A stretch of DNA of 64,000 nucleotides. Source: Pseudomonadota bacterium (GTDB lineage: Bacteria; Pseudomonadota; Gammaproteobacteria; Xanthomonadales; Rhodanobacteraceae). The notes beneath the pieces were generated by a model, which had not been told where the DNA came from, searched no databases, and saw nothing but the letters and a program-made list of their open reading frames with translations. A program made the translations under genes and the position numbers. Location: contig JAJYSM010000011.1 in assembly GCA_021793575.1 (NCBI GenBank), forward strand, positions 1-64,000, given 5' to 3'. Positions 1,544 through 7,346 of this stretch are shown here, one piece after another (within the stretch, counting starts at the first letter, position 1; each line of letters opens with the position of its first letter).

Positions 1544-3295
1544 ATGGAGAGCAGTGTGCGGAGCAGTGTGGTCAAGTTCAAGCAACTGCGGCATTTTACG
1601 ATACTGACGACGCTATCGCTGGGCCTGCTGGCCTGTGCCGATATGCCGCGGCAATCGACGCCCGGTGCGGCGGCTTCACAGCAGCCGCTGGCCCGACTGG
1701 TGGTGGCCATCCCGGACGCGCAGCATGATCTGCTGGCGCAGCTGCTGGCTGGCGAAATGGCGCTGGGTCACACCGATCTGGTCGCCGCTGCAACCTACTA
1801 CGGTCGGGCGATGGTGCTGAGCGACGACCCGCGGGTGGCCGAACGCGCCGCCACGCTGGCGATCGCCGTGCATGACACCGCTGCCGCCCAGCGTGCGCTG
1901 GATCGCTGGCAGGCGCTGGGCGCCACGCCGTCCGGCATGGCGCAAGCGCGCGCGGAGTTGGCGCTCGATCACGGGGATACGGCGGAAGCGCGCCGCCAGC
2001 TGACTTTGCTGACTGGCAGCGGCGACAAAGACGCCTGGCGGCAGTTCGGTCGCGTGCTGCTGGGTGCCCGCGATCAGGCACAGGCGGCGCGCCTGCTGCT
2101 GGCGCTGGCCACGCCGCAGCGCCTGCCCGGCGAGGCCCGGGCATGGCTGGCGATGAGCGAGCTGGGTGACAAGTTCGGCCAGCATGCCTATGCCATGCAG
2201 ATCGCCGAGGCGGCCGCACAGCGTTTCAGGAGCGCCGAAACCTACGCCTGGCTGGCGCAGATGAAATTCAGGGATGGCGACCACGCCGGTGCGCGCCAGC
2301 TGCTCGAAAAGGCGCTGGCCAAGGCGCCGCAGAACATCCCGCTGCGGTTGGCCTACGCCGGCATGCTCAGTCAGGGTGGCGACTACGCGCGCGCTGCCGC
2401 CGTGCTGCAGAAGGGGCCGCAGAATGCCGACACTTTCGCCCTGCGCGCCGGCCTGGCGGCGCAGCGCAAGGACGGCAAGGCGCTGGCGGTGATCTACCAG
2501 CAGCTGCAGCAGGCGCCGCAGGACGTGCGCGCGCGCAGCGCCTACCTGCTGGGTCAGCTGGCTGAAATGCAGCATCACGACGCCCAGGCGCTGACCTGGT
2601 ACGCACAGGTGGCCGACGACGATCCGCACGCATTCGACGCGGATCTGCGCAGTGCGGTGATCCTGCAGACGCAGGGCAAGAGCGAACAGGCGCACAAGCT
2701 GCTGCATCAGATGCAGCTGGATTTTCTCGACCAGCCCGCGCAGCTGCGCCAGGCCTACGAGGTCGATGCCGAGCTGTATCTGCGCGAAAAGAAATACCCG
2801 CAGGCCGAAACCGCATTCAGCCGCGCGCTGCAGGTGGTGCCGGACGATCCGGGCCTGCTCTACGGCCGCGGCCTGGCCTATGCCGAAGCCGGCCAGGTCG
2901 ACCAGGCGGTGCAGGATTTCCGCCGGCTGCTGCAACTCAAGCCGGGCGACGTCGATGCCAGCAACGCGCTCGGCTTCACCCTGGCCGACGCCAATCGCGA
3001 CCTGCCCGAGGCCGAGCGGCTGATCCGCAGCGCTCGCGCCGCCAAGCCTAACGATCCGGCCATCGCCGATTCGTGGGGCTGGGTGCAGTACCGGCTGGGC
3101 CATCTGGAGCAGGCCGAGCGCGTCCTGCGGCAGGCATGGCTGGCGCGCAAGGATGCCGATGTCGGCGTGCATCTGGGTGAAGTGTTGTGGAAGCAGGGTC
3201 GCCAGCAGGATGCGCAGCGGATCTTTGGTGAGGTGCGCCGGATCGATCCGCACAGCAGCAGCCTTCGCGACACCCTGAAACGTCTGCAACCATGA
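1544..3295 (+). CDS. Tetratricopeptide-repeat lipoprotein
   Basis: Predicted outer-membrane-anchored periplasmic TPR protein of 583 residues. The chosen ATG gives a basic n-region (KFKQLRH), a hydrophobic stretch and the lipobox LLAC, with Cys31 as the lipidated residue and Ala at +2, which favours outer-membrane sorting. An in-frame ATG at 1493 would add 17 residues before the signal peptide and seems less likely. Nearly all the mature part is helical TPR-like repeat, clearest around LLYGRGLAYAEAGQVDQAVQ. It overlaps lolB by four bases (ATGA), as in related Xanthomonadales where such a gene sits beside lolB-ispE. A role as a scaffold in envelope assembly is inference; no enzyme motif is visible. 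Confidence 0.8.
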   Translation: MESSVRSSVVKFKQLRHFTILTTLSLGLLACADMPRQSTPGAAASQQPLARLVVAIPDAQHDLLAQLLAGEMALGHTDLVAAATYYGRAMVLSDDPRVAERAATLAIAVHDTAAAQRALDRWQALGATPSGMAQARAELALDHGDTAEARRQLTLLTGSGDKDAWRQFGRVLLGARDQAQAARLLLALATPQRLPGEARAWLAMSELGDKFGQHAYAMQIAEAAAQRFRSAETYAWLAQMKFRDGDHAGARQLLEKALAKAPQNIPLRLAYAGMLSQGGDYARAAAVLQKGPQNADTFALRAGLAAQRKDGKALAVIYQQLQQAPQDVRARSAYLLGQLAEMQHHDAQALTWYAQVADDDPHAFDADLRSAVILQTQGKSEQAHKLLHQMQLDFLDQPAQLRQAYEVDAELYLREKKYPQAETAFSRALQVVPDDPGLLYGRGLAYAEAGQVDQAVQDFRRLLQLKPGDVDASNALGFTLADANRDLPEAERLIRSARAAKPNDPAIADSWGWVQYRLGHLEQAERVLRQAWLARKDADVGVHLGEVLWKQGRQQDAQRIFGEVRRIDPHSSSLRDTLKRLQP

Positions 3296-3918
3296 GTCGC
3301 CGCCTGCGCCTGATCATCGCCGCGCTGCTGCCGCTGCTGCTCGCCGCCTGCGTCTCCGTACCCGTCGTGCGCATCCGGGGCGACGTCAGCCTGATGCAGG
3401 CGCAGCTGGCGCGCGAGCAGGCGCTGGCGCATGCCGATCACTGGATCCTGCAAGGCCGGCTCGGCGTGTCCGACGGCAAGCACGGCGGCAGCGGCAGCTT
3501 CAGCTGGACGCAGAACGGCGACCAATACGATTTCGTGCTGCGCGCGCCGATCACCGGCAAGAGCTTCCGCCTCAGCGGCGGCCCGGACGGCGCGCTGCTG
3601 GAAGGGCTCGACGGCGGGCCGCTGCGCGGGCCGGACGCCGAGGCGCTGATGCGCCAGGCGCTGGGCTGGGTGGTGCCGCTGCAGAACCTGCGCGCGTGGG
3701 TGCTCGGCCTGCGTGCCGACAGCGGCCCGGCCGAGCTGCGGTTCGGCGCCGATCGGCTGCCGTCGCAGCTGCAGCAGGACGGCTGGACGGTGGATTACCC
3801 CGCCTGGGATGCCGCCCGCACGCCGCCGCTGCCGCAGAAGGTGTTCGCCGAAAAGGCGCCCTACAAGGTGCGACTGTTCATCGAGTCATGGCAGTTCCAG
3901 CCGACGCCGGTGCAGTGA
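3292..3918 (+). CDS. lolB: Outer-membrane lipoprotein receptor LolB
   Basis: LolB accepts lipoproteins from the periplasmic chaperone LolA and inserts them into the outer membrane, and is itself a lipoprotein. The 208-residue protein has a signal peptide ending LLAAC, so Cys20 is acylated, with Val at +2. The body matches the LolB pattern: a WxLQGRLGV strand, GSFSW, a hydrophobic core and a C-terminal VRLFIESW strand. The start overlaps the TPR gene stop as ATGA, so translation is probably coupled. The position between hemA and ispE is the conserved gammaproteobacterial setting of lolB. Confidence 0.92.
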   Translation: MSRRLRLIIAALLPLLLAACVSVPVVRIRGDVSLMQAQLAREQALAHADHWILQGRLGVSDGKHGGSGSFSWTQNGDQYDFVLRAPITGKSFRLSGGPDGALLEGLDGGPLRGPDAEALMRQALGWVVPLQNLRAWVLGLRADSGPAELRFGADRLPSQLQQDGWTVDYPAWDAARTPPLPQKVFAEKAPYKVRLFIESWQFQPTPVQ

Positions 3919-3992
3919 ATCGGGCACGCTTGGGTTAGGCTTTGCGCCCCGGCGGACTGCCCCGTGCGCCGCCTCCTGAGCTTCGCATCACG

Positions 3993-5390
3993 ATGCCGTC
4001 TCCGATCCAGCACGTTTCGATCCAACGCGCCGAGCCGTCGCTGGTCGAGCGCCTGTGCGCGATCGAGCGCAAGGCGGTGCAGCTGTTTCGCGGGCATCCG
4101 GCGTGGCCGAGCTATTCGGCGATGCCGATCCCGCCCGCGCTGCTACAGCAGTCGATCAGCCGCGGGCTGGTGTGGGTGGCGCTGAACGGGCAGGCCGAGC
4201 CGGTCGGCTTCGTATGGCTGGATACGCAGGTGGGCGCGGGCGCCATCGGGATTGCCGAGCTCGACGTGCTGCCGGCATACGGCCAGCGCGGCATCGGCGC
4301 GGCGCTGCTGGAACACGCCTGCGCCTGGGCGCGCGCGGCCGGCTATCGGCGCGTCGACCTGGGCACGCTGGCCGACCTGCGCTGGAATGCGCCGTTCTAC
4401 GCGAAACACGGCTTCACCGCGGTGGCCAAGAACGACCCGGCTTTTGCACTCGCACTGCGGCGTGACCGCGAAAACGGTTTTCCCGATCACCTGCGGGTGT
4501 TCATGAGCCGGCCGCTGCCGCCACCTGCCAGCGACGGCTGGACGGCGTGGCCGGCGCCGGCGAAGCTGAACCTGTTTCTGCGCATCGTCGGCCGGCGGCC
4601 GGACGGCTACCACGAGCTGCAGACGGTGTTCCGCCTGCTCGACTGGGGCGACGAGATCCGCCTGCGGCGGCGCGATGACGGTGAGATCCGGCGCACGCAC
4701 GAGGTGCCGGGGGTGCCCGCCGAGGGCGACTTGGCCGTGCGCGCGGCGCGGCTGCTGCAGGAGCACGCGGGCGTCGATGCGGGGGCCGAGATCGAGGTCG
4801 ACAAGCGCATTCCGCTGGGCGGTGGCCTGGGCGGCGGCAGCTCCGATGCGGCCACCGTGCTGGTGGCGCTGAACCAGCTGTGGGGGCTGCAGCTGGACGA
4901 CGATGCGCTGGCCGGGCTCGGCCGCCAGCTCGGCGCCGACGTGCCGCTGTTCGTGCGCGGCCGCTCGGCCTGGGCCGAAGGCATCGGCGAACGGCTCACT
5001 CCGCTGCCGCTGCCGCGGCGCCACTACGTGGTGCTCGACCCGCACGATCCGGTCTCCACCGCCGCGCTTTTTCAAGCGCCTGAATTGACACGAAATGCAC
5101 CGCGGGCGACAATTTCGTCCTTTGTATCCGGCGAAACGGCGGAAAATGCCTTCACGCTGGCGGTACGTGCGCGGCACCCGCGGGTAGCCGCGGCGCTGGA
5201 CTGGCTCGGTGGCTTCGGGTCGGCACGGCTCTCCGGCAGCGGCGGCTGCGTTTTTCTGGAGACGCGATCATTCGATCGGGCGATGACGATCGCCGCGCAG
5301 TGCCCCGTGGCTTTCACGGCGCAAGCGGCCACCGGCGTCGAGGTTTCACCTTTGCGGCAGGCTCTGGTGCGCCATCGTGGCGAGTGCTGA
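3993..5390 (+). CDS. ispE: GNAT acetyltransferase fused in frame to IspE kinase
   Basis: A single uninterrupted frame of 465 codons. Residues about 1-170 form a GCN5-related N-acetyltransferase with the acetyl-CoA loop QRGIGAAL and the closing segment WNAPFYAKHGF. Residues about 171-465 are a complete IspE, which phosphorylates 4-diphosphocytidyl-2-C-methylerythritol in the MEP isoprenoid pathway: PAKLNLFL with the conserved Lys, the GHMP ATP loop GGGLGGGSSDAA, and LGADVPLF with the catalytic Asp. There is no stop between the parts. IspE could also start at the internal ATG 4503, giving 295 residues, close to the family norm, but no Shine-Dalgarno precedes it. An ATG at 3942 would add 17 low-complexity residues. 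The GNAT substrate is unknown. IspE assignment is secure; whether one polypeptide is made is not. Confidence 0.85.
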   Translation: MPSPIQHVSIQRAEPSLVERLCAIERKAVQLFRGHPAWPSYSAMPIPPALLQQSISRGLVWVALNGQAEPVGFVWLDTQVGAGAIGIAELDVLPAYGQRGIGAALLEHACAWARAAGYRRVDLGTLADLRWNAPFYAKHGFTAVAKNDPAFALALRRDRENGFPDHLRVFMSRPLPPPASDGWTAWPAPAKLNLFLRIVGRRPDGYHELQTVFRLLDWGDEIRLRRRDDGEIRRTHEVPGVPAEGDLAVRAARLLQEHAGVDAGAEIEVDKRIPLGGGLGGGSSDAATVLVALNQLWGLQLDDDALAGLGRQLGADVPLFVRGRSAWAEGIGERLTPLPLPRRHYVVLDPHDPVSTAALFQAPELTRNAPRATISSFVSGETAENAFTLAVRARHPRVAAALDWLGGFGSARLSGSGGCVFLETRSFDRAMTIAAQCPVAFTAQAATGVEVSPLRQALVRHRGEC

Positions 5391-5471
5391 GCGATACGGA
5401 CACAACGGCGGCCGCCGGCCTCATGGCGGCGGTCACGAGTACATACGCAGGCATAACCGAACACACATTAC

Positions 5472-5548
5472 TGGGGCGTCGCCAAGCTGGTTAAGGCACG
5501 GGATTTTGATTCCCGCATACGCAGGTTCGAATCCTGCCGCCCCAGCCA
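5472..5548 (+). tRNA. tRNA-Gln (anticodon TTG)
   Basis: A 77-nt cloverleaf with encoded CCA. The acceptor TGGGGCG pairs with CGCCCCA, the anticodon stem CGGGA/TCCCG encloses loop TTTTGAT, and the T-arm is GCAGGTTCGAATCCTGC. Anticodon TTG reads CAA. It lies 34 bases before prs and is probably co-transcribed with it, as tRNA-Gln and prs are in related genomes. Confidence 0.97.
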
Positions 5549-5582
5549 TTCATGATGGCCATTGGTTTCGAGGTAACAACAC

Positions 5583-6542
5583 GTGGACACGTCCACCCCG
5601 ATGATGCTTTTTTGCGGCAATGCGCATCGCGCGCTGGCCGAGGACGTCGCCCATCGCCTGGGCGTGCCGCTGGGCAAGGCGCTGGTTGGCACCTTCAGCG
5701 ACGGCGAGGTGCAGATCGAGATCGAAGAGAATGTGCGCCGGCAGGAAGTGTTCGTGCTGCAACCCACCGGCGCGCCGAGTGCGGTGAACCTGTTCGAGCT
5801 GCTGGCACTCACCGATGCGCTCAAGCGTGCCTCGGCGGCCAGCGTCACGGCGGTGATCCCGTATTTCGGCTATGCCCGGCAGGATCGTCGGCCGCGCTCG
5901 GCGCGGGTGCCGATCACCGCCAAGCTGGCTGCCCGCATGATCGGTGCCGCTGGCGTCGACCGGGTGCTGACGGTGGATCTGCACGCCGATCAGATCCAGG
6001 GCTTCTTCGACATTCCGGTCGACAATGTCTACGCCTCGCCGGTGCTGCTGGCCGACATCTGGCGCCACCACAGCATGGACGACCTGATCGTGGTCAGCCC
6101 GGATGTGGGCGGCGTGGTGCGCGCGCGCGCGCTGGCCAAGCGGCTGGATGATGCGGATCTGGCGATCATCGACAAGCGCCGCCCGAAAGCCAATGTGGCG
6201 ACGGTGATGAACATCATCGGCGACGTCAACGGCAAGACCTGCGTGCTGATCGACGACATCGTCGACACCGCCGGTACGCTGTGCGCGGCGGCCGCGGCGC
6301 TGAAGGAACGCGGCGCGCGCAAGGTGGTGGCCTACTGCGTGCATCCGGTGCTGTCCGGCGCGGCCGTCAGCAATATCGAGGGCTCCCAGCTCGATCAGCT
6401 GGTGGTCACCAACACCTTGCCGCTGAGCCCGGCGGTGCAGGCCTGTGCCAAGATCCGCCAGCTGTCGGTGGCCGAGCTGCTGGCCGAAACCATTCGCCGC
6501 ATCGCCTTTGGCGAGTCGGTGAGTTCGCTCTACGTCGATTGA
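5583..6542 (+). CDS. prs: Ribose-phosphate pyrophosphokinase (PRPP synthase)
   Basis: Makes PRPP from ribose-5-phosphate and ATP, feeding purine, pyrimidine, NAD, His and Trp synthesis. The 319-residue protein shows the FSDGE segment, the [15 protein letters not shown] region of the class I enzymes and the PRPP-binding loop DDIVDTAGT. It starts with GTG; GAGGT lies about 9 bases upstream and no in-frame ATG has a ribosome site. It follows tRNA-Gln and precedes rplY, the usual prs-rplY-pth-ychF row. A perfect 10-bp inverted repeat sits just after its stop. Confidence 0.97.
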
Positions 6543-6548
6543 TTTCGT

Positions 6549-6570
6549 CGCGGCGGCCACGGCCGCCGCG
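6549..6570 (+). terminator. Perfect 10-bp inverted repeat after prs
   Basis: CGCGGCGGCC and GGCCGCCGCG are separated by two bases, seven bases past the prs stop. No T-tract follows directly, only CTTTTCT 13 bases on. It is probably a processing, attenuation or mRNA-stability hairpin between prs and rplY rather than a full terminator. Confidence 0.4.
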
Positions 6571-6650
6571 GCACCACCGGCTTTTCTGGTCGCGGAAAAG
6601 TCATGCGATCGCCGCGAGGCGGTTCTTCAAGCAACCTAAGGCAGTATCCA

Positions 6651-7346
6651 ATGACCAAGACACATGAAATCAAGGCGCATAGCCGCAAGGACGAGGGGAA
6701 AGGTGCGAGCCGCCGCCTGCGTCGTGCGAGCTTCGTGCCCGCCGTGGTGTACGGCGCCGACAAGCCGCCGCAGAGCATCCAGATCGAGCACAACACGATC
6801 CTGCTCGCCGCCAGGCACGAGTGGTTCTTCTCTTCGGTGCTCGATCTGAACGTCGACGGCGACGTGCAAAAGGTGCTGGTGCGCGACTGGCAGAAGCATC
6901 CGTTCAAGCAGCTGATGATGCACATGGACTTTCTGCGCATCAACGAGAACGAAGCCGTGCGCGTGAACGTGCCGCTGCACTTCCTCAATCAGGAAAAATC
7001 GCTGGCCGGCAAGACCTCTGGCGTGGTGATCTCGCACAACCTGACCGAGGTCGAGGTGTCCTGCCTGCCCAAGCATCTGCCCGAGTTCATCGAGCTGGAT
7101 CTGGGCAATCTGAAGGAAGGCGACATCATCCACCTGTCGCAGCTGACCCTGCCTGCCAACGTCGAGCTGCCCGCGCTGCAGCTGGGTGAGGCCCATGACA
7201 TCGCAGTGGTTACGGTGAACCACGTCAAGGAAAGCGCCGAGGATGTGGCTGAGGACGCCGCCGCCCTGGCCGAAGCCGAGGCAGCCAAGGCGGCAGCGGT
7301 GAAGCCGGCCAAGCCGGCCGCCAAGCCGGGCGCCGACAAGAAGTAA
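6651..7346 (+). CDS. rplY: 50S ribosomal protein L25/general stress protein Ctc
   Basis: Binds 5S rRNA in the large subunit. The 231-residue protein is the long Ctc-type form: an N-terminal L25 domain (about 1-95, KDEGKGASRRLR, AVVYG) followed by the TL5/CTC beta domain (about 100-190) and an Ala/Lys-rich tail. The start ATG at 6651 has TAAGG about 10 bases upstream; an earlier in-frame ATG at 6603 adds a sequence unlike L25. It lies between prs and pth, the conserved placement. Confidence 0.95.
   Translation: MTKTHEIKAHSRKDEGKGASRRLRRASFVPAVVYGADKPPQSIQIEHNTILLAARHEWFFSSVLDLNVDGDVQKVLVRDWQKHPFKQLMMHMDFLRINENEAVRVNVPLHFLNQEKSLAGKTSGVVISHNLTEVEVSCLPKHLPEFIELDLGNLKEGDIIHLSQLTLPANVELPALQLGEAHDIAVVTVNHVKESAEDVAEDAAALAEAEAAKAAAVKPAKPAAKPGADKK

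Follow-up and report, generated by a model that had tools for sequence, protein, structure and literature searches.

The window, a stretch of 64,000 nucleotides from a member of the Rhodanobacteraceae, contains an open reading frame in which a complete GNAT acetyltransferase is followed, with no stop in between, by a complete IspE, the CDP-ME kinase of the MEP pathway (Table 1). This arrangement had been read from the sequence alone, and the Pfam, NCBIfam, and structure alignments bear it out. Upstream of the ATG the frame stays open back to TTG 3942. Further neighbours of the fused gene encode a TPR protein, ribosomal protein L25, Pth, and YchF; among RNA families, only the tRNA near the fused gene exceeds its gathering score.

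Table 1. Features of the fused gene and its immediate surroundings, in window coordinates.
Feature	Coordinates	Strand	Remarks
lolB, upstream neighbour	3292..3918	+	TIGR00548
Fused ORF, GNAT acetyltransferase + IspE	3993..5390	+	465 aa, 50.2 kDa; start ATG 3993
GNAT domain, PA2271-type	4020..4526	+	complete to C-terminal strand ...LRVFMSRPL
Junction	4503..4547	+	GNAT tail (Met171 at 4503, MSRPL), 7-residue linker to W183, WPAPAK from residue 186
IspE (CDP-ME kinase) domain	4545..5363	+	residues 185–457
Sigma70-like promoter, TTGACA-17-GACAAT	5085..5113	+	within ispE (residues ELTRNAPRATI); tRNA-Gln and prs follow
tRNA-Gln(TTG), downstream neighbour	5472..5548	+	
prs (ribose-phosphate diphosphokinase), downstream neighbour	5583..6542	+	

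The N-terminal part matches Acetyltransf_7 (PF13508) at residues 57–142 (49.3 bits, cut-off 27) and PF00583 (48.9, gathering score 20.7), and its profile aligns window residues from about 13 to 173 with residues 9–170 of the 174 of PDB 9cr5 (PA2271; E 3.8e-27). The C-terminal part carries the N and C domains of GHMP_kinases (residues 247–323 and 385–435), scores 255.4 bits with TIGR00154 (IspE; residues 185–457; curated cut-off 138.7), and aligns over residues 184–458 with residues 3–282 of the 283 of E. coli IspE (1oj4). Since these two structure alignments run over nearly the full length, both domains are complete. The AlphaFold2 model of the fusion, built from the window and 38 relatives, has a mean pLDDT of 89.0 and a pTM of 0.90; in Foldseek its C-terminal part matches IspE structures (TMt 0.94) and its N-terminal part 9cr5 (TMt 0.88).

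The window GNAT retains E89, Q98-x-x-G-x-G, and Y136. Q/R-x-x-G-x-G/A is the acetyl-CoA motif of the GNAT superfamily (here QRGIGA from Q98), and E89 and Y136 represent its active-site Glu and Tyr. The window IspE shares active-site positions with E. coli IspE in the alignment to 1oj4, and 12 of its positions are identical in 54 of 59 aligned fused genes, the window included. The N-terminal part matches acetyltransferase families only. PADLOC yields no defence match for the GNAT and PHROGs only general acetyltransferase entries, and we reject a defence or phage role for it.

Spread and origin of the fusion

The two-part frame without a stop is found in 137 of 233 genomes of the family and in 17 of 26 genera (counted by hand from the listed rows). 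The named fused genera include Luteibacter, Fulvimonas, and Pinirhizobacter as well as Rhodanobacter, Dyella, and Frateuria, the three genera in which the sequence-only reading had proposed to look; several metagenome-assembled genomes (MAGs) carry it too. By genus, the fusion is present in 44/45 genomes of the window's own genus, 20/20 of g24, 23/23 of g35, 14/15 of g41, 10/16 of g26, and in all 26 genomes of 12 small genera. G216, a partial match in the family listing, is counted as fused, being of full length on a separate look; in G013 and G173 the fused gene is cut by contig ends. Among the best 80 of 217 relatives, both parts lie in one ORF at 77 loci (one of these, L126, cut by a contig end) and the GNAT stands alone at three.

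Eight genomes inside the 17 fused genera are not fused: six of g26, discussed below, and G012 and G223, which show no match in the family-wide fusion search. DXR is found in both of the latter, with no HMG-CoA reductase (HMGR) in G012, and a putative assembly gap is the likely reason for the missing match. IspE without the GNAT was seen in none of the 145 genomes of the fused genera.

Loss of a stop codon through faulty sequencing or assembly has a practically negligible probability, and chance or misassembly is rejected as the source of the frame, given its recurrence in 137 genomes, among which are single-contig assemblies such as G024, G026, and G030. In the IspE tree all 27 fused rows fall on one side of a branch (support 83/48, recovered in 84% of 200 bootstrap trees), and the sequences thus suggest that the fusion likely had a single origin.

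In the other nine genera (88 genomes) the scores among the matches listed fit IspE alone, or there is no match. Eleven loci from five of these genera (none from g22, g23, g40, or g43) have LolB and IspE matches in all cases and a Prs match in nine, the two others being short stretches. No GNAT match is seen at these 11 loci or at five unfused ispE loci of the order. A separate GNAT gene adjoining ispE, considered as an intermediate, is therefore not found: all 16 unfused loci have LolB and IspE without it.

The GNAT-part profile, run over 31 selected genomes, finds close copies only in the six unfused g26 genomes; among the remaining 25, which are G012, G223, and 23 genomes of unfused genera, the best match is a fairly close one in G199 (E 3.8e-33), away from the ispE locus. 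At E 1e-20 it is matched in 7 of 369 genomes of a class sample (own genome included) and in 29 of 398 genomes of a phylum sample (own genome and one family member included). Apart from the own genome and this family member, the matches lie in stand-alone-like open frames of 165–281 codons; two of the class and phylum matches carry an internal stop. None of the 25 loci of these stand-alone relatives (23 genes; 2.8–5.5 kb per stretch) has an ispE, lolB, or prs match. The distant copy of the same GNAT type in G199 (L103:813–1745) adjoins a frame that looks like a REP-associated transposase.

The junction, the internal ATG, and a sigma70-like promoter inside ispE

In the 59 aligned fused genes the GNAT tail typically reads ...NGFPxxLRVFMSRxL, and the linker from this tail to the Trp has seven residues in 57 genes and six in two; after the Trp, IspE starts in sound genes with xxPAPAKLNLFL or near that. 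Stand-alone GNATs of the PA2271 type end at about the junction point, and stand-alone IspE of the family starts just before WPAPAK. As these two ends coincide with the junction, the genes were joined tail to head without loss of any sizeable piece.

The sequence-only reading had pointed to the ATG at 4503 as an internal start of an IspE of normal length without a clear ribosome site. Translation from it would give, beside the full-length product, a separate IspE of normal size (31.6 kDa), and this codon is ATG in all 59 fused genes. However, stand-alone GNAT relatives also have Met at the equivalent place (...LRVVM, LRVAM, RVAM); the conserved Met is thus a residue of the GNAT tail, its conservation does not indicate an IspE start, and we reject it as evidence of a relic start. 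The absence of a ribosome site is confirmed, as no Shine–Dalgarno-like 4-mer precedes this ATG in any of the 59 genes. However, of the 80 named loci (the best 80 of 217 relatives), 70 have no such site at the nearest candidate main start either, so that the missing site is weak evidence against a start at 4503. Synonymous diversity around Met 4503, computed from 55 sound fused genes, is normal (observed/expected 1.05–1.19 in windows centred on residues 160–173), which also speaks against a second start. Taken with the GNAT origin of the Met, this makes the production of two proteins rather unlikely.

The lowest synonymous diversity of the whole gene is seen at residues 363–378, and the sigma70-like site of Table 1 lies within this trough. 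It is the only such site in 3200–6700, where shuffled sequence gives an expectation of 0.2. Of the same 80 named loci, 79 have TTGACA-17-NACAAT, as do 13 of 16 stand-alone ispE genes (11 of the family and two from other families of the order); the site is absent from the three stand-alone ispE of family f2. The site remains in species that have lost IspE and keep the GNAT only. The E. coli prs has a promoter inside ispE/ychB; our literature search for such a published promoter returned no relevant paper. The embedded promoter probably serves tRNA-Gln and prs.

Fate of the IspE half in genomes with HMG-CoA reductase

IspE, DXR, and mevalonate-type HMGR were searched for in 36 selected genomes of the family, and DXR and HMGR in all 233. 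HMGR is found in 44 genomes from 6 of 26 genera: in unfused genera, 14 genomes of g20, two of g23, and one of g36; in fused genera, ten of the own genus, all 16 of g26, the nameable members of which are Dyella, and one of g41, 27 genomes in all. DXR was not found in the 14 HMGR-positive genomes of g20 and is above the cut-off in one of 16 of g26; the MEP pathway hence seems, from gene content, to have been replaced more than once in the family. In g24, two DXR matches are seen in 14 of 20 genomes.

A mevalonate route is likely in G134 (D. lipolytica), because a fusion of HMGR with mevalonate kinase (L221:5974–8271, minus strand; 766 aa; TIGR00532 and TIGR00549) lies there near a diphosphomevalonate decarboxylase gene; the hopanoid genes hpnB, hpnH, and hpnI are also neighbours. 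Outside G134 the route is judged from the HMGR search and, in G030 and G222, from frame content: HMGR and GHMP kinase domains share one frame in these two genomes (loci L223 and L224), and G222 also has a diphosphomevalonate decarboxylase-like frame.

The 27 HMGR-positive genomes of fused genera comprise 13 with a sound-looking IspE, eight with altered motifs in an open frame, five with the GNAT alone, and one with the GNAT and a broken IspE. The first set consists of the ten genomes of the own genus and of G134, G142, and G140. All ten own-genus genomes have DXR and the fused gene, with the 12 IspE positions unchanged in nine (G212 is judged by its IspE score alone); HMGR alone therefore does not predict IspE decay. 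G134 and G142 (277 and 286 bits) differ at one checked position each, and G140 (253 bits) is counted as sound-looking by its score; DXR is not found in G142 and is in two pieces in G140.

The IspE halves with altered motifs (G127, G129, G131, G133, G135, G138, G141, G222) score 131–223 bits, vs. 253–286 in the sound ones tested of fused genera; seven of the eight are still above the TIGR00154 cut-off. All eight show changes in both the DGYH motif and the glycine loop, four also in Asp316 and one in Lys191; the frame is open to the end and the C-terminal piece well conserved. DXR is below the cut-off in five of these genomes and was not found in three. As judged from the altered motifs, these halves would have lost kinase activity; the eight cases are seven of one genus and one MAG and so represent few independent events. 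In the GNAT-only genomes (G128, D. acidisoli; G136, D. monticola; G137, D. nitratireducens; G130; G132) the ORF ends two codons after MSRxL or MSRSF; in G139 a stop lies three codons after the GNAT tail, with an IspE remnant in another frame. In all six genomes without a whole IspE the GNAT still sits at the lolB/GNAT/prs locus.

Five of the 59 aligned fused genes differ at the 12 IspE positions (L046, L047, L048, and L056 at 5–8 of them, L045 at one), and all five come from HMGR-positive genomes. The GNAT residues E89, G100, G102, and Y136 are the same in 58 of the 59 genes, among them the four that are decayed; L055 has Asp for E89. Among the 76 full-length fusions within the best 80 of 217 relatives, 67 keep all 12 IspE positions; a single change is seen in three (L166, L171, L175) and five or more changes in six (L151, L169, L173, L178, L180, L192). 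The four GNAT positions are unchanged in all 76.

The two halves also differ in their rates of change. The median IspE/GNAT ratio of dN is 1.61 in the decayed set (eight genomes, 28 pairs), vs. 0.80 in a Dyella-group set with sound IspE (seven genomes, of which two are g26; 21 pairs) and 1.02 in nine Rhodanobacter with sound IspE (36 pairs); with dS near saturation, these ratios are rough. For the GNAT, pN/pS is 0.146 (15 pairs) among the six genomes that lack a whole IspE. Judged by these substitution patterns, the GNAT is under purifying selection where IspE has decayed or is gone.

These results bear on a functional coupling of the two halves, in which the GNAT would sense acetyl-CoA, or acetylate IspE or another protein, to tune the flux through the MEP pathway; the sequence-only reading had envisaged a link of isoprenoid precursor flux with acetyl-CoA or with acetylation of a substrate. 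Retention of the fusion in 137 genomes, with IspE never seen without the GNAT in the 17 fused genera, would suit such a link, as would the confident two-domain model. However, the partners are not kept and lost together: the GNAT occurs without a sound IspE in 14 genomes and stays under purifying selection beside altered motifs (eight), a broken piece (one), or no IspE at all (five), and none of the 25 loci of stand-alone GNAT relatives has an ispE match. A link between acetylation and isoprenoid flux is thus not supported, and we regard coupling as quite improbable.

Alternatively, the IspE part might also be a non-catalytic scaffold for the GNAT, the frame thus outliving the active site in some HMGR-positive Dyella. 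The eight genomes with altered motifs yet no stop agree with this: an equal amount of random change, applied to a sound g26 gene, produces an average of 4.3–5.6 stops each, with a probability of no stop of 0.0025–0.012 (uniform) or 0.002–0.016 (transition-biased). However, 124 base differences already separate two sound IspE from this genus, for which the same calculation gives 0.023; these probabilities are therefore too small, because much of the change predates the loss of IspE. Along the gene, residues 176–360 evolve faster in six decayed g26 genomes (pN 0.27–0.30 vs. 0.14–0.17), and residues 381–462 are better conserved in them than in the seven genomes with sound IspE (pN 0.072, pS 0.388, vs. 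0.200 and 0.600). This C-terminal conservation is again what a scaffold would show; low values are likewise seen at these residues in the single pair of g26 genomes with sound IspE, and a promoter and a leader at the DNA level could account for the conserved 3' piece. Moreover, the IspE part is wholly missing in five relatives. The fold predicted for the decayed form from six sequences has a pLDDT of 44.5, fails on the GNAT part too, and is uninformative here. We consider a scaffold improbable. In its specific form, an IspE half of mevalonate-pathway Dyella that is a pseudokinase, with the open chain and the conserved C-terminal part stabilising or positioning the fused acetyltransferase, is likewise unlikely; were it true, the family would show a bifunctional enzyme turning into an enzyme plus pseudoenzyme and then into an acetyltransferase alone. 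In the g26 Dyella with a degenerate IspE half (L089, L090, and L092–L095), residues 381–462 stand out by unusual conservation, at synonymous as well as nonsynonymous sites.

Interpretation and comparison with known systems

The explanation we favour, and hold to be fairly likely, is that two enzymes, each useful by itself, have become stably fused, most likely as one 50-kDa chain with two separate catalytic parts. We infer a single polypeptide, separate functions, and the following order of events from comparison of the genes. A PA2271-type GNAT gene would have landed between lolB and ispE in an ancestor of Rhodanobacter, Dyella, and Luteibacter, and would have been joined tail to head with ispE upon loss of the GNAT stop and the ispE start. 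The N-terminal part would acetylate some amine using acetyl-CoA, and the C-terminal part would phosphorylate CDP-ME; the fusion would fix their co-expression, the two activities forming no metabolic unit. In a lineage with the mevalonate pathway, where the MEP pathway is going, selection on the IspE half would weaken and its active site decay; in some species a new stop just past the GNAT tail would have removed this half, with the GNAT half retained.

The GNAT appears useful without a working IspE, as HMGR-positive Dyella keep it at low pN/pS with IspE decayed or deleted; and since some relatives with mevalonate genes retain the GNAT although their IspE half is decaying or gone, separate jobs are probable for the two halves. 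The high pTM of the model, however, hints at a fixed arrangement of the domains, which a passive fusion does not need, and counts against the favoured explanation.

A fusion of an isoprenoid enzyme with an unrelated acetyltransferase is kept across 17 genera, and we did not find this pairing in print among open-access PubMed Central articles, searched by title or start of the abstract. As the mevalonate pathway occurs within the same family, nature itself tests here whether fused genes must also be functionally linked; they need not be, which cautions against inferring such a link from fusion alone. Caution is also due in naming by similarity: some Dyella have a gene scoring as ispE that encodes a GNAT with a probably dead kinase tail.

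Compared with known IspE (TIGR00154; PDB 1oj4, 8ckh), the C-terminal part is the whole kinase, with the same GHMP fold and the same active-site and glycine-loop motifs, and lolB and prs adjoin it as they do the stand-alone ispE of the order; it differs by some 180 additional N-terminal residues, the GNAT, and by IspE having no start of its own at the usual place. With the PA2271-type GNAT of Pseudomonas aeruginosa (9cr5), the N-terminal part shares a full-length match and the same C-terminal strand (TMt 0.88); the other PA2271-type GNATs of the class and phylum samples lie in open frames of 165–281 codons, whereas that of the window is joined to IspE. We found no literature on the PA2271 protein and know of no substrate for it. 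Fusions including a MEP-pathway enzyme are otherwise represented by the bifunctional IspDF, called common in a recent article (PMC13001223, J Bacteriol 2026), in the main text of which the words Dyella, Rhodanobacter, and Lysobacter do not occur. IspDF joins two steps of the MEP pathway; in the GNAT–IspE fusion, by contrast, the N-terminal part is no known MEP enzyme, matching acetyltransferase families only, and is kept when the MEP pathway goes.
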